A stretch of DNA of 64,000 nt, taken from Jiangella sp. DSM 45060. GTDB taxonomy: Bacteria > Actinomycetota > Actinomycetes > Jiangellales > Jiangellaceae. The notes under the pieces are model-generated. The model saw nothing but the letters and a program-made list of their open reading frames with translations. It made no database searches and was not told where the DNA came from. The stretch spans positions 3,348,001-3,412,000 of the forward strand of contig NZ_LT629771.1 in assembly GCF_900105175.1 (NCBI RefSeq), read 5' to 3'. Positions 44,782-53,800 of this stretch are shown here, piece after piece. The stretch's first letter is position 1. Each line of letters opens with the position of its first letter. The translations under genes and the position numbers were made by a program.

Positions 44782-44835
44782 TCAGCAGCAACCGGAGTCG
44801 CAGCAGTCCGTGGTCTGGTCGTCGCAGCAGTCCAT
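44782..44835 (-). CDS. 17-residue Cys-pair peptide next to arsenic/metal regulator
   Basis: An 18-codon ORF encodes MDCCDDQTTDCCDSGCC: six cysteines in three CC pairs, five Asp residues and no basic residues. Its start follows GGAGGTGATC, a ten-base match to the anti-SD end of 16S rRNA, at ideal spacing, which makes translation very likely despite its size. It lies 36 bases downstream of the 64-residue CC-containing gene and on the same strand, divergent from an ArsR regulator that itself has a CC pair. A metallothionein-like chelator of arsenite or a soft metal, or a leader peptide, are possible roles. I know of no family for it. Confidence 0.55.
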   Translation of the reverse strand: MDCCDDQTTDCCDSGCC

Positions 44836-44871
44836 GGTGATCACCTCCCCTCGGTCAGGCCGGCAGCGCGG

Positions 44872-45066
44872 TCAGGACGGCGCGCAGCAGGCGGCGCCCC
44901 GGGCGGCGGACCGCCCCCTCCAGCCGTCACGCACGCGCGACACGGCGCGGCCCAGGGCACTCACCCGGCAGCAGGTCGCCAACGCGACCAGGCGGGCACG
45001 GGCGGCCTCGGCGATCAGGTCGCGCCGGCGCTCGGCGGCCATCGTCTCGGGCAGGTACGGGTCCAT
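44872..45066 (-). CDS. Small basic protein with two CC pairs
   Basis: A 64-residue protein: MDPYLPETMAAERRRDLIAEAARARLV is helical and Arg-rich, followed by LATCCRVSA and a C-terminal GAACCAPS. ATG at 45066 is chosen for the strong AAGGAGG upstream; a second ATG seven codons earlier lacks one. The N-terminal helix resembles small actinobacterial proteins of unknown function. The paired cysteines echo the neighbouring peptide and the N-terminal CC of the divergent ArsR, which suggests metalloid binding. No enzyme fold is visible. Confidence 0.6.
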   Translation of the reverse strand: MDPYLPETMAAERRRDLIAEAARARLVALATCCRVSALGRAVSRVRDGWRGRSAARGAACCAPS

Positions 45067-45090
45067 GACGCCTCCTTGTTTCGACATTCA

Positions 45091-45110
45091 TCTAATCACT
45101 GATTCGAAGA
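45091..45110. promoter_or_regulatory. ArsR/SmtB operator candidate
   Basis: AATCACTGATT (45094-45104) is a perfect 5-1-5 inverted repeat inside an AT-rich stretch, with outer ATCT/AGAT bases. It lies in the 85-bp gap between the small Cys protein genes and the divergent ArsR gene, the usual location of an autoregulatory ArsR site. Confidence 0.5.
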
Positions 45111-45151: not shown

Positions 45152-45517
45152 ATGACCAGCCCCACCATCAGTCCCGTCGCACCGGGGAACGCCCGCACCC
45201 TCCCGGTGCTGACCGACTGCTGCACGCCCAGCTCCGCCGTGAGCGACGACGACGCGTCGCTGCTCGCCGGTATGTTCAAGGCGCTGGCCGACCCAGCCCG
45301 GGTGAAGATCCTGTCGATGCTGCTCAACGCCGACGAGGTCTGCGCCTGCGACTTCTCGGCGAGCATCGGCAAGACGGCGGCCACCACCAGCCACCACCTG
45401 AAGCTGCTGCGCGACGCCGGACTGATCACCGGCGACCGCCGCGGCACCTGGGTCTACTACCGGGTCATCCCGGAGCGCCTCGCCGCCATCCGCGACGCCC
45501 TGTCGCTGGGCCGGTGA
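45152..45517 (+). CDS. ArsR/SmtB-family metalloregulator with CC and CxC motifs
   Basis: A 121-residue winged-helix repressor. After an extended N-terminus containing Cys23-Cys24 come FKALADPARVKILSMLL and EVCACDF (Cys64, Cys66), the ELCVCDL-type metal motif at the start of the DNA-recognition region. TSHHLKLLRDAGLI then gives the recognition helix. N-terminal Cys plus CxC resembles CadC/As(III)-type thiolate sites, so it should respond to arsenite, antimonite or Cd/Pb. It faces the two Cys-pair genes across the AATCACTGATT repeat. Confidence 0.9.
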   Translation: MTSPTISPVAPGNARTLPVLTDCCTPSSAVSDDDASLLAGMFKALADPARVKILSMLLNADEVCACDFSASIGKTAATTSHHLKLLRDAGLITGDRRGTWVYYRVIPERLAAIRDALSLGR

Positions 45518-45978: not shown

Positions 45979-46323
45979 TCAGCAGCAGACCCTGAGGTAG
46001 TTCTGCAGGTCCTCGAGCGCGCGGGCCATGCCGTCCTTGTCGGCGCGGTAGTAGACGGCCTTGCCGTCACGGCGGGAGGTGACGATGCCACCGCGGCGCA
46101 TCAGCTGCAGCTGCTGCGACGCGGTCGACTGGCCGATGCCGGCCTGTTCGGCGATCTCGTTCACCGACAGCTCGGCGCCGCGCGCGAACAGCAGCATGAT
46201 CTTCTGCCGGGCCGGACTGGCCAGCGCCTTGAGGAACTCGTGCGTGGCATCGCTCAGCTCGACCAGGTCATCGGTCACCAGCGGCAACGACCGGCGCTCC
46301 CCCGCCTGCACGACATCGTCCAC
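45979..46323 (-). CDS. ArsR-family regulator with C-terminal Cys pair
   Basis: A 114-residue winged-helix protein: FLKALASPARQKIMLLFARGAELSVNEIA, then GIGQSTASQQLQLMRRGGIV (recognition helix) and VYYRADKDG. It lacks CxC in the DNA-binding region and instead ends RVCC, a C-terminal thiolate pair like that used by some actinobacterial As(III) sensors. GTG at 46323 follows TATGCT (46330-46335, reverse strand) by about six bases, so the mRNA may be leaderless. It is divergent from the ArsO-like gene across a long inverted repeat. Confidence 0.9.
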   Translation of the reverse strand: MDDVVQAGERRSLPLVTDDLVELSDATHEFLKALASPARQKIMLLFARGAELSVNEIAEQAGIGQSTASQQLQLMRRGGIVTSRRDGKAVYYRADKDGMARALEDLQNYLRVCC

Positions 46324-46386: not shown

Positions 46387-47463
46387 GTGACCCCAACACA
46401 TCCTGTGATCGTCGTCGGCGCCGGCCAGTCCGGGCTCGCCGCGGCCCGCGCCGCTCGCGACGCCGGCCTGCACCCCGTCGTCCTGGAGGCCGGTGACCGC
46501 CCGGCCGGTTCCTGGCCGCACTACTACGACAGCCTGCGGGCATTCTCCCCCGCCCGCTACAGCGCCATGCCGGGCTTCCCGCTGGACGGCGACCCCGACC
46601 GCTACCCCACCCGCGACGAGGTCGCCGACTATCTCGACCGGTACGCGCAACACCTCGGCGTCGACATCCGCACCCGCACTCGGGTGACGACCGTCGAGGC
46701 CGACGGCCCGGGGTTCGTCGTGCACACCGCCGGCGGCGACGCCCTGCCGGCCGCGGGCGTCGTCGCGGCGTCCGGGTCGTTCGGCAACCCCACCATTCCG
46801 GACCTGCCCGGACGCAAGACGTTCACCGGCGAGCTGCGCCACGTCGCGGACTACCGCAACCCGGCCCCGTACGCGGGCCGACGGATCGTCGTGGTCGGCG
46901 GCGGCAACTCCGGCGTCCAGATCGCCGACGAGCTCGCCGGCGTCGCCGACCTCACCCTCGCCACGCTCGCGCCCATCTCGTTCCTCCCGCAGACGATCCG
47001 CGGCCGCGACCTGCACCACTGGCTGGAGGTCACCCATTTCGACCACCTGCCCGCGGCCTGGCTGCGCCACCTCGTGCGCAAGCCGCTGGTGCTCGATACC
47101 GGCCGCTACCGCGACGGCATCGAGTCCGGCCGCATCGACCGCCGCGCGATGTTCACCGCCTTCGACGGCGACGGCGTCGTGTGGGCGGACGGCGAGCGCG
47201 AGCACGTCGACGCCGTCATCTTCGCCACCGGTTACCGGCCGGCCGTCGGCTACCTCCGCTCCCTCGGCGCGCTGGACGAGCACGGCCTGCCGCTGCATGC
47301 CGAGGGCATCTCGACGACGCACCCGGGCCTGGTCTACCTGGGCCTGGAGTTCCAGCGCTCGTTCTCGTCCAACACCGTGCGCGGCGTCGGCCGCGACGCC
47401 GACCATGTCGTGCGGCCGCTGGCCGCCCACGTCCAGCAGGCACACGCGATCATCGGCCTGTGA
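46387..47463 (+). CDS. Flavin-containing monooxygenase, ArsO-like
   Basis: A 358-residue protein with the FAD motif VIVVGAGQSGLAAARAA, the NADPH motif IVVVGGGNSGVQIADEL and FATGYRP near the C-terminus. It belongs to the flavin monooxygenase/ArsO group, a family found in ars operons with an unestablished reaction (possibly oxidation of arsenicals). The GTG start lies at the predicted transcription start, implying a leaderless mRNA. Its stop overlaps the MFS gene as GTGA, so oxidation and export are coupled. A general FMO is the alternative. Confidence 0.85.
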   Translation: MTPTHPVIVVGAGQSGLAAARAARDAGLHPVVLEAGDRPAGSWPHYYDSLRAFSPARYSAMPGFPLDGDPDRYPTRDEVADYLDRYAQHLGVDIRTRTRVTTVEADGPGFVVHTAGGDALPAAGVVAASGSFGNPTIPDLPGRKTFTGELRHVADYRNPAPYAGRRIVVVGGGNSGVQIADELAGVADLTLATLAPISFLPQTIRGRDLHHWLEVTHFDHLPAAWLRHLVRKPLVLDTGRYRDGIESGRIDRRAMFTAFDGDGVVWADGEREHVDAVIFATGYRPAVGYLRSLGALDEHGLPLHAEGISTTHPGLVYLGLEFQRSFSSNTVRGVGRDADHVVRPLAAHVQQAHAIIGL

Positions 47464-48716
47464 GACCAGCCCGCCCGCCCGGGGACCCGCGCAGCGCCCA
47501 GCGCGCCGGTCCCCGCGGCGTGCTGGCCGCGCTGTGCCTGACCCAGATCGTCGGCTGGGGCGTGCTGTACTACTCGTTCCCGGTCGCGCTGCCGGCCATC
47601 ACCGCGGACACCGGCTGGTCCGAGTCGTCCACGACCGCGGCCTTCTCCGCCGCGCTCGTGGTCGCGGCCGTCGCCGGCATCGCCGTCGGCCGGATCATCG
47701 ACCGGCACGGCCCGCGCTGGGTGATGACGCTCGGGTCGGTCGTCGGTGTCGCGGCGACCCTCGGCGTCGCCGCCGCGCCGGGCATCGGCTGGTTCGCGGC
47801 CGCCTGGGTGGTCGCCGGGCTCGCCCAGGCCGCCACGCTGTACGCGGCCGCGTTCACCGCGCTGACCCGCTGGTACGGGCCCGCGCGGATCCGCGCGCTG
47901 ACCGTCCTGACGCTGGTCGCCGGTCTCTCCAGTACCATCTTCGCCCCGGCCACCGCGGCCCTTCTCGACCACGCCGGCTGGCGGCAGACCTACGTCGCGC
48001 TGGCCGTGCTGCTGGCCGTCACCACCGTCCCCGGCCACGCCCTCGGTCTCGCCGCACCCTGGCCCGCACACGAGCACGCGACCCATCCACGACCACGCGA
48101 CGGCCACGTCCGCGCGGTGGCCACCAGCCCGGCGTTCGTCTGCCTCACGGCCGCCTCGGCGCTGACCGCCTTCGCGATGTTCGCCGCGACGATCCACCTC
48201 ATCCCGCTGCTCACCGGCCGCGGGCTGTCCATGACGCTGGCCGCCTGGGCGCTCGGCCTGTCCGGCGCCGGGCAACTGCTCGGCCGCGTCGGCTACGCCC
48301 CGCTGTCGCGTCGCACCACCCCACGGTTCCGGTCCGTCCTCATCCTGGCCGCCGTCGCCGCCGCCATCGCCGTCACCGGTCTGCTCCCCGGACCGGCCGC
48401 GGCCCTCGTCGCCGCCAGCATCGTCCTCGGCATCGCCCGCGGCGCCTTCACGCTGTTGCAGTCGACCGCCGTCAGCGACCGCTGGGGCATCACCGGTTTC
48501 GGCGCCCTCTACGGCATCCTCAACGCGCCCACCACCGTCGCCATGGCCGTCGCGCCCTGGGCCGGCAGCGCCATCGCCTCCGCCGTCGGCTCGCACCCGG
48601 CGATGTTCGCCGTCCTCACCGCCATCGCCGGCGCGGCCGCCGTCGTGGCGCTCGGCACCGAGCCGGGCCGGCGACGTGGACGGGGCCGCGCCACGGTGGC
48701 AGGGTGCGACCCATGA
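47460..48716 (+). CDS. MFS transporter (candidate arsenical exporter)
   Basis: A 418-residue major-facilitator protein with 12 hydrophobic segments. VGWGVLYYSFPVALPAI is helix 1, GRIIDRHGPRW the loop 2-3 motif, and SRRTTPRFR the cytoplasmic loop in the second half. Its position in an ArsR-controlled operon directly after an ArsO-like gene suggests efflux of arsenite or an organoarsenical, comparable to ArsK/ArsJ-type MFS exporters. The family assignment is sure; the substrate is inference. Start GTG overlaps the ArsO-like stop and its own stop overlaps the next ATG. Confidence 0.88.
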   Translation: MRPARPPGDPRSAQRAGPRGVLAALCLTQIVGWGVLYYSFPVALPAITADTGWSESSTTAAFSAALVVAAVAGIAVGRIIDRHGPRWVMTLGSVVGVAATLGVAAAPGIGWFAAAWVVAGLAQAATLYAAAFTALTRWYGPARIRALTVLTLVAGLSSTIFAPATAALLDHAGWRQTYVALAVLLAVTTVPGHALGLAAPWPAHEHATHPRPRDGHVRAVATSPAFVCLTAASALTAFAMFAATIHLIPLLTGRGLSMTLAAWALGLSGAGQLLGRVGYAPLSRRTTPRFRSVLILAAVAAAIAVTGLLPGPAAALVAASIVLGIARGAFTLLQSTAVSDRWGITGFGALYGILNAPTTVAMAVAPWAGSAIASAVGSHPAMFAVLTAIAGAAAVVALGTEPGRRRGRGRATVAGCDP

Positions 48717-50329
48717 CGGGTGCGCGTGACGACGGCGTCCTGGACGTCCTCGTCGTCGGCGCCGGGCCCACGGGGCTCGCGCTGGCCGCCGAACTGCGGC
48801 GGTACGGCGTGCGCTTCCGGCTCGTCGACCGCGCGCCGGACCGCGTGCACGAGTCGCGCGCGTTGGCCATCCAGCCGCGCACGCTGGAGGTGCTGGCCGG
48901 GCTCGGCGTGACCGGCCGACTCGTCGAGCACGGCAACCGCACCGTCCAGCTCCGTCTGCACACCGGACGCCGCACCGTCTCGATGCCACTGTTCGACATC
49001 GGCCTCGACGACACCGTCTACCCGTATCTGCTGTTCCTCGCGCAGGCCGAGACCGAGCGCGTCCTCGTCGAGCACCTCGCCCGGCACGGTGTCCGGCCCG
49101 AGCGGGGCACCGAGCTCGTCGGGCTGGAGCAGGATGCCGACGGCGTCACCTGCCGGCTGCGCGTCGCCGGCTCGGGCGAGGAGACCGTCACCGCCCGGTA
49201 CGTCGTCGGCTGCGACGGCGCGCACAGCGCCGTCCGCCGGTGGGCCGGCATCGACTTCGAGGGACTCGCCTACCCGCAGACGTTCGTGCTGGCCGACCTC
49301 GAGGCCGACGGCATCGAGCCCGGCGCGGCCCACGCCTTCCTCGGCGGCAACGGCTTGTCGTTCTTCTTCCCGCTCCAGACCCCGGCCTCGTGGCGGCTCC
49401 TGGCCATGCGCCCGCCCGGCGGGCCGGCACCCACCGGCCGCCGGGTCGAGCTGAGCGAGCTGCAGACCCTTGCCGATGCGGCCACCGCGTCGACGGTGCG
49501 GCTGCACGACTCCGTCTGGGCCACCGACTTCCGCATCGCCAACCGCGGCGCCACCCGGTACCGGTCCAGGCGGGTCCTCCTGGCCGGCGACGCCGCCCAC
49601 ATCCACAGCCCGGCCGGTGCGCAAGGCATGAACACCGGCATCCAGGACTCCGTCAACCTCGGCTGGAAGCTCGGCCTCGTCGTCACCGGCCGCGGCGCCC
49701 CGGCGCTGCTGGACACCTACGAGGCCGAGCGCGCGCCGGTCGGACGCCGGGTCCTGCGCTTCACCGACCGCGCCTTCACCATCGGCACGTCGTCGAACCC
49801 GCTGATCCGGGCCGCCCGCGGCCACGTCGTTCCCGCTGTCCTGCCGCTGGCGACCCGGTTCCGGCGGGTCCGCGGCTACGGCTTCCGCACGCTCGCCCAG
49901 CTCGCGATCCGGTACCGGCACAGCCCGCTGTCGGCGGGCGACCGTCGCCGGTCCGGCCGCGGCCCTCGACCGGGTGACCGGCTCCCCGACGCCCCCGTCA
50001 CCCATGGCGGCCGGGCGACGACGCTGCACGCCGCCCTCGGAGGCCCCGGCTTCCACCTGCTGCTGTGCAGCCCGGGCGGCGTCTGGCCCGCACCTGCCGG
50101 CGCGGACCTCGCGGCCGCCCACCCGGGCCTCGTCACCGTCCACCGCCTCAGCCGCGGCGGCGGGCCGGACGTCCTGGTCGACCACACCGGCCGCGCCGGG
50201 CGGCTACTCGGCCTCGGCGGCGATGCGGTCCACCTGCTCATCCGGCCCGACGGCCACCTCGCCCGGCGCGGCGACACCGACCTCACCGCCGTCCGCGACG
50301 ACCTCGCCCGCTGGCTGCCGACGACCTAG
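48713..50329 (+). CDS. FAD-dependent aromatic hydroxylase (PheA/TfdB-like)
   Basis: A 538-residue class A flavoprotein monooxygenase: GAGPTGLALAAELRRYG (FAD), ESRALAIQPRTLEVL, GCDGAHSAVRRWAG (DG motif for NADPH and FAD), and VLLAGDAAHIHSPAGAQGMNTGIQDSVNLGWKL (GD motif). A C-terminal thioredoxin-like domain (about residues 430-538) is typical of phenol hydroxylases. It hydroxylates aromatic rings using O2 and NADPH. ATGA overlap with the MFS gene makes it the third gene of the ArsR-controlled operon. Aromatic arsenicals are a speculative substrate; phenols or antibiotics are equally possible. Confidence 0.9.
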   Translation: MTGARDDGVLDVLVVGAGPTGLALAAELRRYGVRFRLVDRAPDRVHESRALAIQPRTLEVLAGLGVTGRLVEHGNRTVQLRLHTGRRTVSMPLFDIGLDDTVYPYLLFLAQAETERVLVEHLARHGVRPERGTELVGLEQDADGVTCRLRVAGSGEETVTARYVVGCDGAHSAVRRWAGIDFEGLAYPQTFVLADLEADGIEPGAAHAFLGGNGLSFFFPLQTPASWRLLAMRPPGGPAPTGRRVELSELQTLADAATASTVRLHDSVWATDFRIANRGATRYRSRRVLLAGDAAHIHSPAGAQGMNTGIQDSVNLGWKLGLVVTGRGAPALLDTYEAERAPVGRRVLRFTDRAFTIGTSSNPLIRAARGHVVPAVLPLATRFRRVRGYGFRTLAQLAIRYRHSPLSAGDRRRSGRGPRPGDRLPDAPVTHGGRATTLHAALGGPGFHLLLCSPGGVWPAPAGADLAAAHPGLVTVHRLSRGGGPDVLVDHTGRAGRLLGLGGDAVHLLIRPDGHLARRGDTDLTAVRDDLARWLPTT

Positions 50330-51729
50330 CGACGGGCCAGGGCCCTCGCCTGGGCCGGCAGGCGGTGCTCGCGCACCCACGTCTGCGCCGCCAGCTGCGT
50401 GGCGTCCCAGGGCGAGCCCAGCGGCGGCGTGTACGACAGGTCGAGCTCGCTGAAGCCGTCCACCGTCATGCCGTGGAACAGCGCCGTGGCGTAGGTGTCG
50501 ACGCGCTTGGCCGTCTCGGTGCCGCGCCGCCCCACCAGTTGCGCGCCGAGGAGCAGGCCGGTGTCGGCGTCGCCGGTGATGCGGATGGTGATCGGCTGCG
50601 CACCCGGGTAGTACGCCTTGTGGTCGTCGGGGGTGGCGGTGCTGCTCACCGGCGCGAACCCGGCCGCCGTCGCCTCGTGCTCGCGCAGCCCGGTGCGGGC
50701 GGCGACCAGGTCGAAGACCTTGACGACCTGGGTGCCGAGGCTGCCGGCGAACCGGGCCGTGCCGCCGAGGGCGTTCTCGCCGGCGACGCGGCCCTGCTTG
50801 TGCGCGGTGGTGCCGAGCGGCAGGTAGGTGACGCCGAGCTGACGGTGGTGGGTGACGACGCAGTCGCCCGCGGCCCAGACGTGCGGCAACCCGGTGGCCA
50901 TGGTCTCGTCGACGACGACGGCGCCGCGCGGCCCGGTTCGTGCCCCGGCCGCCACGAGCAGATCGGTGTCCGGGCGCACCCCGACGACGAGGAGGACGAG
51001 GTCGACGTCCCAGGCGAGCGGCGCACCGTCCGGGCCGGCGCCGTCGACGTGCAGGCCCGACGACCCGCGGGAGACGGCGGTGACGGTGGAACGGGTGTGG
51101 ACGGCGACGCCGTTCCGGTCCAGCTCGGCGCGGACCAGCGCGCCGAGCGACGGGTCGACGGTGGGCAGCACCTCGGGGAGCATCTCGACCTGCGTGACGG
51201 CGATGCCGCGGGCGGTGAGGCCCTCGGCCATCTCCAGCCCGACGTAGCCGGCGCCGACGATCAGCGCGGTCGACGGCTTGATGCGGTCCAGGCTCTGCTC
51301 GAGCGCGAACGTGTCGCCCATCGAGTGCAGCACGTGCACGCCGTCGGCCGGGCCCAGGTCATCCAGCCCGGCGATGGGCGGGCGCACCGGCAGGGCGCCG
51401 GTGCCGACGATCAGCTCGTCATAGCTAAGACTCGTTTCCGCCCCGTCTGGCGTCCGCAGCGCCAGCCGCCGCCCGTCGACGTCGATCGAGGTGACGAGGG
51501 TGTCCAGCCGCAGCCGCATGCCGGTGGCCTCGAGATCGGCGTGGGTCCGGTGCGCCAGGTTCGACCAGTGCCCGACCTCACCGGACACGTAGTACGGGAT
51601 GCCGCAGATGGAGAAGTTCGGGTAGGCGTCGGCGACCACCACGGTGACCTCGGCCGACGGGTCCAGCTCGCGGGCGCGCAGCGCGGCGGAGATGCCGGCG
51701 TCGCTGCCGCCGATGGCGACGATGTGCAT
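50326..51729 (-). CDS. CoA-disulfide reductase/NADH oxidase-type flavoprotein
   Basis: A 467-residue pyridine-nucleotide disulfide oxidoreductase. GGSDAGISAALRARELDP binds FAD, and the single redox Cys lies in FSICGIPYYVSGEV as in CoA-disulfide reductases and Nox. The second GxGxxG, ALIVGAGYVGLEMAEGL, binds NAD(P)H, VWAAGDCV closes the FAD site, and the C-terminal dimerisation domain is complete (SYTPPLGSPWD). It recycles low-molecular-weight or protein thiols or reduces persulfides. The stop overlaps the convergent hydroxylase by four bases. It lies 9 bases downstream of the aquaporin gene, so the two are co-transcribed and may both serve arsenic detoxification. Confidence 0.9.
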   Translation of the reverse strand: MHIVAIGGSDAGISAALRARELDPSAEVTVVVADAYPNFSICGIPYYVSGEVGHWSNLAHRTHADLEATGMRLRLDTLVTSIDVDGRRLALRTPDGAETSLSYDELIVGTGALPVRPPIAGLDDLGPADGVHVLHSMGDTFALEQSLDRIKPSTALIVGAGYVGLEMAEGLTARGIAVTQVEMLPEVLPTVDPSLGALVRAELDRNGVAVHTRSTVTAVSRGSSGLHVDGAGPDGAPLAWDVDLVLLVVGVRPDTDLLVAAGARTGPRGAVVVDETMATGLPHVWAAGDCVVTHHRQLGVTYLPLGTTAHKQGRVAGENALGGTARFAGSLGTQVVKVFDLVAARTGLREHEATAAGFAPVSSTATPDDHKAYYPGAQPITIRITGDADTGLLLGAQLVGRRGTETAKRVDTYATALFHGMTVDGFSELDLSYTPPLGSPWDATQLAAQTWVREHRLPAQARALARR

Positions 51730-51738
51730 GGATACCTC

Positions 51739-52419
51739 TCAGAGTCGGACCCGCGCGGGCGCGGGATAGAGGGCGAGAACGAGCAGGACGCCGACGGCGG
51801 CGCCCACCACCTGGGCGGCGACGAAGGCCGGCGCCGACGACGGTGCGATGCCGGCGAAGGTGTCGGAGAAGATCCGGCCGACTGTGACAGCCGGGTTGGC
51901 GAACGAGGTGGAGCTGGTGAACCAGTACGCCGCCCCGATGTAGGCGCCGACGGCCGGGGCGACGAGCGCGGAACGGCCGGACCGGACGAGCGCGAAGATC
52001 AGCAGCACCAGCCCGGCCGTCGCCACCACCTCACCGACCAGCAGGCCGGTGCCGGTGCGCTCCGTCGTCGCCAGCCCGGCGTCGACGGAGAACATGACGT
52101 TCGCCAGCAGCGCTCCGCCGATGCCACCGGCACCCTGCGCGACGACGTACGCGGCGACCTCCGTCGGCGAGGTGCCGGCGCCGGACCGGCGCCCCAGCCA
52201 CCAGCCGGCCAGGGTGACCACCGGGTTGAGGTGCGCCCCGGACACCGGACCGAACAGCAGGATCAGCACCGCCAGCCCCAGCACGGTCGCGGTGCTGTTC
52301 TGCAGCAGCTGCAGCCCCACGTCATCCGGGGACAGACGCTGAGCGGCGATCCCCGACCCCACGACCACCGTCACCAGCAACCCCGTGCCGAGGAACTCGG
52401 CCAGCAGTCGTCGCGTCAT
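51739..52419 (-). CDS. MIP-family aquaglyceroporin (AqpS-like arsenite channel candidate)
   Basis: A 226-residue channel with six transmembrane helices and two half-helices: HLNPVVT (first NPA box altered to NPV) and FANPAVT (second box intact). A changed first NPA box and ars neighbours match AqpS-type channels that let arsenite flow out after arsenate reduction. It is divergent from an ArsR-ArsC fusion gene over a 49-bp gap holding an inverted repeat. The start is ATG 52419, with a GTG one codon upstream as an alternative. Confidence 0.9.
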   Translation of the reverse strand: MTRRLLAEFLGTGLLVTVVVGSGIAAQRLSPDDVGLQLLQNSTATVLGLAVLILLFGPVSGAHLNPVVTLAGWWLGRRSGAGTSPTEVAAYVVAQGAGGIGGALLANVMFSVDAGLATTERTGTGLLVGEVVATAGLVLLIFALVRSGRSALVAPAVGAYIGAAYWFTSSTSFANPAVTVGRIFSDTFAGIAPSSAPAFVAAQVVGAAVGVLLVLALYPAPARVRL

Positions 52420-52459: not shown

Positions 52460-52468
52460 ATTGAGGCA

Positions 52469-53140
52469 ATGAACGCTGAGCGAACAGCCCTGGAGCGGCG
52501 GGCCGCCAAGCACGCGGCGCTGTCCGACCCGTCCCGGCTGCACATCGTCGACCTGCTCAGCCTCGGCGACCTCTCCCCCAGCGAACTGCAGGCCAGGCTC
52601 GCGATGCCGTCGAACCTGCTCGCCCACCACCTCAAGACCCTGGAAGCCGCCGGTCTGCTCGCCCGGGGCCGCTCCGAGGCCGACCGGCGGCGCAGCTACG
52701 TCCGGCTCACCCCCGGCGCGCTCGACGGCCTCGTTCCCGGCGCCGCCGGCCACGCCCACCGGGTGGTGTTCGTCTGCACCGCCAACTCCGCCCGCTCGCA
52801 GCTCGCGGCCGCGCTCTGGCGGCGCGCGAGCGCCATCCCCTCCACGTCCGCCGGCACCCATCCGGCCGGCCAGGTCGACCCCGGCGCCGTCGCGGCGGCC
52901 CGGCGCCACCGCCTGCCGCTGCGCGCGACCCGGCCGCGGCGGCTGGCCGACATCGCCGGCGACGACGACTTCGTCATCACCGTCTGCGACCACGCCCACG
53001 AGGAACTCGGCGACCGCGGCGACCTGCACTGGTCCGTCCCCGATCCCGTCCGCGCCGGTACCGACGACGCCTTCGACGCCACCCTCACCGCGCTCACCGA
53101 CCGCGTCCACGCCCTCGCACCACGCCTCGCCGCGTCCTGA
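52469..53140 (+). CDS. ArsR-ArsC fusion: winged-helix regulator plus LMW-phosphatase-type arsenate reductase domain
   Basis: A 223-residue two-domain protein. Residues 8-90 are an ArsR-type wHTH (KHAALSDPSRLHIVDLLSLGDLSPSEL, SNLLAHHLKTLEAAGLL) with no thiolate metal site. Residues 97-223 are a low-molecular-weight tyrosine-phosphatase/ArsC domain with the loop VCTANSARS (Cys103, Arg109) and VCDHAHEEL further on. The second domain may sense or reduce arsenate, linking catalysis to derepression. ArsC follows 12 bases after it. GAGG upstream of ATG 52469 gives a modest SD. Confidence 0.9.
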   Translation: MNAERTALERRAAKHAALSDPSRLHIVDLLSLGDLSPSELQARLAMPSNLLAHHLKTLEAAGLLARGRSEADRRRSYVRLTPGALDGLVPGAAGHAHRVVFVCTANSARSQLAAALWRRASAIPSTSAGTHPAGQVDPGAVAAARRHRLPLRATRPRRLADIAGDDDFVITVCDHAHEELGDRGDLHWSVPDPVRAGTDDAFDATLTALTDRVHALAPRLAAS

Positions 53141-53152
53141 AGGAGACCCGCC

Positions 53153-53800
53153 ATGTCGCACACCGGCGAACGAGAGCCGCTCACCCTCGACCAGCGACAC
53201 GCGCTCACCACCGCCGCCACCCGGCTGGCCGGCGAGTTCGACGGCACCTTCGGGGAGGCGACGATCGAACGGTTCCTGCACACCTCCTACGACCAGTTCG
53301 CCGGCCGAGCCGTCGTCGCCAACTTCCTCCCGCTGCTCGCCGAACGGTTCGCCCGGCAACGCCTCACGGCGCTCGCCCGCGTCGAGGGACACGGCCACGA
53401 CGGCCGGCCCACCGTGCTGTTCCTGTGCGTGCACAACGCCGGCCGGTCCCAGATGGCACTCGGGTTCTTCCAGCACCACGCCGGCGACGACGCCATCGCC
53501 TGGTCCGGCGGCTCCGAGCCCGGCGACCGGGTCAACCCGGTCGCCGTCGCCGCCATGGCCGAACGCGGCATCGACATCGCCGCCGAGTTCCCCAAGCCCT
53601 GGACCGACGAGATCGTCCGCGCCGCCGACGTCGTCGTCACCATGGGCTGCGGCGACGCCTGCCCCGTTTTCCCCGGCAAGCGCTACGAGGACTGGACCCT
53701 CGACGACCCCGCGGGCCAGGACCTCGCCGCCGTCCGTCCCATCCGCGACGACATCGAGCGTCGCGTCCTCACCCTCCTCGACGAGCTCCGCCGAGCCTGA
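53153..53800 (+). CDS. arsC: Thioredoxin/mycothiol-coupled arsenate reductase ArsC with helical N-domain
   Basis: A 215-residue arsenate reductase. An N-terminal three-helix bundle (about residues 15-75, ATIERFLHTSYDQFAGRAVV) precedes the phosphatase-fold domain with LCVHNAGRSQ (Cys92-x5-Arg) and the resolving pair in MGCGDACPVFPG (Cys166, Cys170). That architecture is typical of actinobacterial ArsC enzymes that reduce arsenate to arsenite with thioredoxin or mycoredoxin electrons. GAAGGAGA precedes the ATG. It forms one operon with the ArsR-ArsC fusion; the aquaporin would let arsenite exit. Confidence 0.93.
   Translation: MSHTGEREPLTLDQRHALTTAATRLAGEFDGTFGEATIERFLHTSYDQFAGRAVVANFLPLLAERFARQRLTALARVEGHGHDGRPTVLFLCVHNAGRSQMALGFFQHHAGDDAIAWSGGSEPGDRVNPVAVAAMAERGIDIAAEFPKPWTDEIVRAADVVVTMGCGDACPVFPGKRYEDWTLDDPAGQDLAAVRPIRDDIERRVLTLLDELRRA

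Follow-up and report, generated by a model that had tools for sequence, protein, structure and literature searches.

What is a run of 17 codons, made largely of cysteine pairs, doing close to an arsenic-type repressor in Jiangella sp. DSM 45060, and is it a gene at all? The window that we analysed, 64,000 nucleotides of contig NZ_LT629771.1, carries on its minus strand (44782..44835) a micro-ORF, here PEP, that reads from 44835 to 44782, stop included, and has as its predicted 17-residue product MDCCDDQTTDCCDSGCC, followed by TGA. A first-pass annotation had proposed a 17-residue peptide with three CC pairs, and such a peptide is encoded, on a strand that the annotation did not name. Its description of a near-perfect Shine–Dalgarno (SD) sequence at ideal spacing stands in part: GGAGGTGATC is present (44839..44848, minus strand), with its GGAGGT 7 nt ahead of the ATG, but the grade ‘near-perfect’ was given against an anti-SD sequence that we assume, not against the 16S RNA of the organism. 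Exact searches of the organism's own genome (G000; a single contig of 7,485,957 bases, rated 100% complete) with the 16S 3′-end patterns GGATCACCTCCTTTCT and GGYTGGATCACCTCC gave no match, and its rRNA may differ. The peptide was also said to lie next to an ArsR regulator and a 64-residue protein with CC pairs. The latter, p64, does have two CC pairs, and the regulator, ArsR1, does have CC and CxC motifs (DCC and VCAC), but the p64 gene and an intergenic region lie between it and the peptide. Standard gene finders would probably overlook a gene of 17 codons, and this one is probably unannotated in the genome records.

The first matter to settle is conservation. The sample consisted of 22 genomes of the family, 12 of them from Jiangella, five from a second genus and five from four other genera. 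A p64 gene occurs in 13 of the 22, and ArsR1, at 72–100% identity, in the identical 13, which comprise 11 of the 12 Jiangella genomes and two of the five from the second genus; neither was found in the five genomes of the other four genera, and two further genomes of the family have ArsR proteins of only 43–48% identity. In every locus with ArsR1 and p64 a micro-ORF follows p64 after 34–55 nt, so that the intact trio is present in those 13 genomes at 14 loci. The count includes two from J. anatolica (G007; L082, L080; L106, L107), in which two diverged ArsR1–p64–peptide modules lie about 21 kb apart. An SD sequence precedes the peptide ORF at all 14 loci, as GGAGGT in 13 and as GGGGGTG in one. 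Retention of the ORF and its SD in close relatives was one of the checks set by the first-pass annotation, and both are kept throughout. The twelfth Jiangella genome (G014) has a degraded copy of the peptide, VDCRDDLSTDCCDTGSC, that lacks an SD and is accompanied by no match to ArsR1 or p64; this decayed copy is found at about 1498–1551 of locus L077. In G008 there is, on another contig, an extra p64-like fragment without peptide, ArsR1 or operator, which counts against the chelator reading developed below; the fragment (L015/L048, contig C55) looks like the remnant of a second module. A weak p64 match in G005 (E 0.007) has no module parts beside it.

It is also possible to ask whether the sequence changes as a coding sequence would. 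Mean pairwise nucleotide identity is 86.6% in the ORF, 74% in p64, 49% in the spacer between them and 53% in the 54 bases downstream. Over the 91 pairs compared, which are not independent because the sequences are related, the predicted frame has a pN/pS of 0.35, against 0.59–1.34 for the other five, and p64 itself gives 0.46 (12 of the 14 sequences, of equal length). Changes at codon positions 1 and 2 are far rarer in cysteine codons (0.048 and 0.024) than in the other codons (0.147 and 0.186). The 14 ORFs differ by a single indel, a whole codon inserted at the G013 locus; this codon was dropped for the codon counts. None of the ORFs contains a stop. Against this, amino-acid identity did not reach significance when alignment columns were permuted: 177 of 2000 permutations attained the identity of the real alignment, although 1510 of 2000 created a stop. 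The substitution pattern, the second check that had been set, favours the predicted frame and points to clear coding constraint in that frame only.

Three other explanations were rejected. That the ORF arose by chance is ruled out by its conservation across loci, by its identity compared with that of its flanks, and by a scan for tiny ORFs (10–40 codons with three or more CC pairs, or with two or more and an SD) over the 311,012 bases of the window and the 14 loci. Every match in that scan was an ortholog of the peptide or its upstream in-frame start, and 1,555,060 bases shuffled in 200-base blocks contained no ORF with three CC pairs. An extension of p64 by readthrough or frameshifting is contradicted by the variable distance from the p64 stop to the ATG, over which the relative frame takes all three values, and constraint imposed by an antisense gene by the pN/pS ratios of the minus frames at the ORF (1.30, 0.59 and 1.15). 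There is scarcely any probability, in our estimate, that the conserved unit is a functional DNA or RNA element rather than a peptide: the high nucleotide identity would suit such an element, although the confinement of constraint to one frame, the whole-codon indel and the lack of stops do not, and the predicted folds of the 14 ORF RNAs had no common shape when compared by eye. Scans of the window for Rfam families and for tRNAs gave no match. The micro-ORF is a genuine conserved gene.

The peptide has six cysteines at 11 loci and five at three, and is 17 residues long except at one locus, where it has 18. Its cysteine pairs are separated by six and three residues (four for the latter at the locus with the extra codon). 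The outer pairs, Cys3, Cys4, Cys16 and Cys17 in the numbering of the window, are invariant in all 14 peptides; all three pairs are kept in 11, and in the remaining three the middle pair is disrupted (C11S twice and C12G once), which counts against a chelator. The cysteine fraction lies in the range expected of a small metallothionein-like protein (about 15–35% Cys); the CxC and CxxC arrays of classical metallothioneins do not occur in any of the 14 peptides, which have CC pairs only. The net charge of the peptide is −4 to −6 and that of p64 is +3 to +7, the two being opposite at all 14 loci.

The p64 gene (44872..45066, minus strand) is co-directional with PEP and upstream of it, and has its own SD (AAGGAGG, 45071..45077, minus strand). 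The protein is basic, with CC at 32–33 and 60–61; the first of these pairs is absent at two of the 14 loci, another point against the chelator reading. An AlphaFold2 model consists of one helix from residue 5 to residue 60 (pLDDT 76.6, pTM 0.37), and no Pfam or NCBIfam family is matched above its cut-off. We predict that p64 and PEP form a two-gene operon with the peptide second and last, and that the two are co-transcribed. Stable hairpins lie 3′ of the ORF at eight of the 14 loci (z at or below −2 against 100 simple shuffles) and fit a terminator for this operon. A comparison of the 2.5 kb downstream of the peptide at the 14 loci, by blastn and by all matches of at least 50% identity, gave no conserved gene; DNA is shared there within only three groups, namely the window with the G005 and G013 loci, G010 with G011, and G016 with G020, and in the window the shared DNA begins 580 bases out, past a GNAT-like gene.

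These observations bear on the other role that the first-pass annotation had allowed for, that of a cysteine-sensing leader. A leader or attenuator that responds through its cysteine codons to the supply of cysteine or mycothiol could use the six codons and the hairpins that follow the ORF. The polycysteine attenuator leaders of mycobacteria have a leaderless start, and the peptide, with its SD at every locus, is not of that kind. Cysteine-rich sORFs predicted to regulate a downstream gene exist in mycobacteria (Canestrari et al. 2020, cited in PMC9094748); the peptide resembles them as a tiny cysteine-rich actinobacterial ORF but differs in being led by an SD, second behind p64 and followed by no conserved gene. 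A leader is unlikely because the ORF is not at the start of the transcript and no downstream gene is conserved. Moreover, the bases immediately behind the ORF diverge as described above, and the aspartates are kept nearly as well as the cysteines. The leader proposal is thus not supported, and we would give it only a very small probability. A RiPP-like peptide, modified after translation or secreted, has the same slight chance in our judgement. A very short cysteine-rich product does look like a RiPP precursor, and p64 gives a match to FxSxx-COOH, at 16.4 bits below the cut-off of 28; however, no modification enzyme was recognised among the classified neighbours, and, among those window proteins for which we searched, ArsR1 and p64 alone occur with the peptide in the two genera.

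ArsR1 (45152..45517, plus strand) is divergent from p64–PEP. It is identified as an ArsR/SmtB winged-helix repressor by matches above cut-off to HTH_5 and NF033788 (89.9 bits for the latter, cut-off 55), and its N-terminal CC and its CAC motif are kept in all 14 proteins. The CC aligns with that of PDB 6j0e, which is named as an arsenic-responsive repressor and which we take to be CgArsR. According to PMC11868830, the CgArsR site combines Cys15 and Cys16 from one monomer with Cys55 from its partner, and that of R773 ArsR consists of Cys32, Cys34 and Cys37. On that account ArsR1 resembles the CgArsR1 type (type 3 site) in its N-terminal CC, but its remaining cysteines are placed as an R773-type CxC rather than at Cys55; compared with R773 it has the CxC without an equivalent of Cys37. 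ArsR1 thus has the CC of one three-cysteine As(III) site and the CxC of the other, with neither set complete, and from its sequence it is plausible that its metalloid site is a hybrid of the CgArsR and R773 types.

Between the divergent genes, in the predicted p64–PEP promoter region, lies an operator-like element, TTCGAATCAGTGATTAGATGAATGTCGAAACA (45077..45108, minus strand), which is common to all 14 ArsR1–p64 intergenic regions with a consensus near TCGAATCAnTGnTTAGATgaAcnTCGAAACA. With up to three mismatches allowed, its 22-base core occurs once in the organism's own genome. Across the 12 Jiangella genomes it has 12 occurrences, each at a different module; the module-less G014 has no match. 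At 12 of the 14 loci a TTGAnA box lies 16–19 nt ahead of a TAGATG-like box in a scan made without a chance control. The former is TTGACA at five of these loci and at one is found only as the second-best match. The window and G005 have a weak −35 box (TTTCCA), that of the window being a further point against the chelator reading. By the 22-base pattern, the shared ArsR1/p64–PEP region would be the only target in Jiangella, with ArsR1 as the presumed binding protein, and the switch ahead of the peptide looks dedicated to one arsenic-type sensor. A peptide produced behind such a site could serve its own circuit, stripping As(III) from ArsR1 or binding to ArsR1 so as to turn the sensor off. This would leave p64 unexplained, and we consider feedback of this kind improbable.

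What surrounds the module in the window is an ars island. It should be noted that its members are mostly below NCBIfam cut-offs and hence are named by best match. A second ArsR-family regulator, ArsR2 (45979..46323, minus strand; NF033788 78 bits, cut-off 55), lies outside the core module and ends in VCC; it is divergent from an ArsO-like flavin monooxygenase (46387..47463, plus strand; NF040505 248.7 bits, cut-off 425) and may be another kind of arsenic sensor. Further along are an ArsK-like MFS transporter (47538..48716, plus strand, start approximate; NF033733 158.6 bits, cut-off 400), a CoA-disulfide-reductase-like flavoprotein (50326..51729, minus strand; TIGR03385 308 bits, cut-off 579) and a channel of the MIP/aquaporin family (51739..52416, minus strand; TIGR00861 80 bits, cut-off 171). 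These are followed by an ArsR–ArsC-like fusion (52466..53140, plus strand), in which both domains are in one ORF and both matches are below cut-off (NF033788 47.3 bits and TIGR02691 28.4 bits). Last is an arsenate-reductase-like protein with an N-terminal three-helix domain (53153..53800, plus strand; NF046112 55.3 bits, cut-off 25), which also matches PRK13530 at 81.4 bits (cut-off 215). Every one of the 12 Jiangella modules, window included (12 of the 14 loci), has arsenate reductase homologues no more than about 10 kb away, and the second copy in J. anatolica has an ArsC gene that runs in the direction of ArsR1 and lies 85 nt beyond it. None of the ars genes searched was found in the 18 kb covered at the two loci from the other genus; the trio is therefore separable from the ars island, and this too counts against the chelator reading.

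Two further alternatives turn on this distribution. The module might answer to some other soft metal (Cd, Cu(I), Zn, Sb or Bi) or to thiol stress, with the arsenic context incidental. ArsR/SmtB proteins sense many metals, and the two loci outside Jiangella have no searched ars gene. We nevertheless regard a different ligand as distinctly unlikely, given the alignment of the N-terminal CC of ArsR1 with that of the arsenic-responsive 6j0e and the arsenate reductase homologues near every Jiangella locus. Alternatively, the peptide and p64 might act as a metallochaperone relay that does not store As(III) but delivers it to an exporter or an enzyme. The precedent is ArsD, an As(III) metallochaperone with three vicinal cysteine pairs that works with ArsA. 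The peptide resembles ArsD in its three vicinal cysteine pairs and its ars context, p64 is also CC-paired and accompanies it at all 14 loci, and an ArsK-like transporter is nearby. On the other hand, the peptide is far shorter than ArsD, p64 has no Pfam or NCBIfam match to ArsD or ArsA, and an ArsA ATPase partner does not occur in the p64–PEP operon, where only the 34–55 nt spacer separates the two genes and the genes downstream are not conserved. The two loci at which the trio was found without searched ars genes likewise speak against a relay, which is an unlikely but not negligible possibility.

The best fit is the idea that the first-pass annotation had put forward, a putative minimal soft-metal chelator. 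It is preferred because the checks on conservation and substitution pattern failed to refute it, because the module lies by an ars island in the window and because the operator-like site is confined to the module. Also in its favour are the invariant outer cysteine pairs, the CC and CAC motifs kept by every ArsR1, the arsenate reductase homologues near 12 of the 14 loci and the opposite net charges of p64 and the peptide. In the scheme that we propose, ArsR1 would repress p64–PEP from the shared intergenic operator until As(III), the presumed inducer, or a similar soft metalloid filled its cysteine site and the promoter opened. The basic helical p64, in which two CC pairs are usual, would then be made together with the acidic peptide and its five or six cysteines. 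The thiolates of the peptide would bind As(III), six cysteines allowing up to two tri-coordinate sites, and the peptide, alone or in a putative complex with p64, would lower free As(III), which the ars island, through its genes for reductase, oxidoreductase and efflux functions, might then deal with. We give about an even chance to the proposal that p64 and a thiolate peptide under ArsR1 control sequester As(III) or hand it on.

The peptide would thus be a ribosomally made functional counterpart of phytochelatin or of a minimal metallothionein. Bacterial SmtA/BmtA and MymT and the short fungal Cu-metallothioneins were considered for comparison; the peptide is like them in being very rich in cysteine (5–6 of 17–18 residues), in its soft-metal context and in its probable metal-controlled expression, but differs in having 17 residues and CC pairs only and in lying behind an ArsR whose cysteines are of the arsenic type. 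Enzymes make phytochelatins from glutathione; the peptide, although ribosomally encoded, is likewise short and acidic with repeated cysteines and could bind As(III). These are likenesses of cysteine content and context; the peptide most likely works like a minimal metallothionein or phytochelatin, a statement that makes no claim to membership of a known family. More tentatively, and with rather less than even confidence, it can be suggested that a dedicated arsenic repressor circuit has no output other than the peptide and p64, that the peptide forms a two-part As(III) trap with its oppositely charged, helical CC partner and that it is the smallest natural genetically encoded arsenic-binding peptide. 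We know of none smaller.

Three alignments were made: A1, of 11 of the 14 p64 sequences (all but those from the G006, G008 and G016 loci); A2, of 12 peptides out of 14 (all but those from the G008 and G016 loci); and A3, of seven of the 14 (the window and six related loci). With A2, 15 of 393 genomes of the class were matched at E values up to 0.1. Fourteen of these belong to the family, including the decayed copy in G014, and the only match beyond it (E 0.09) looks like chance. Among 396 genomes of the phylum two were matched, the organism's own and one at E 0.009 that lies inside a 368-residue frame. A search of genome_contigs, described as covering 84,980 species, was limited to MDCCDD[QL] and cannot see every member; it matched 24 stretches, of which six were confirmed, all from Jiangella (the species named were J. 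anatolica, J. endophytica, J. asiatica, J. aurantiaca and J. muralis). Outside the family, A1 gave 15 weak matches in the 393 genomes, the best (E 4.9e-5) in a frame with a stop. Around 21 of the more distant ArsR genes listed, opened to about 1.5 kb on each side, there were two CC-rich small ORFs, neither resembling the peptide. One lacks an SD; the other (L098, minus strand from 927) has an SD and two CC pairs in its 32 residues, and it may be no more than the end of a longer gene. No title among the literature matches listed describes such a peptide. The peptide gene is known here from one family only, since neither the class and phylum genomes nor the pattern search of genome_contigs gave a relative outside it.

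Bacteria are known to defend themselves against arsenic mainly by efflux, reduction, oxidation and methylation. The peptide offers a candidate minimal As(III) ligand that can be tested directly and would be of use in biosensors and remediation; it also makes a case for looking for micro-ORFs in ars clusters. If the proposed function is correct, an arsenic-type sensor whose sole detected operator-like site stands before two tiny genes with cysteine pairs would add to these defences a sequestration branch, one that gene callers have probably missed because its key product has 17 residues.
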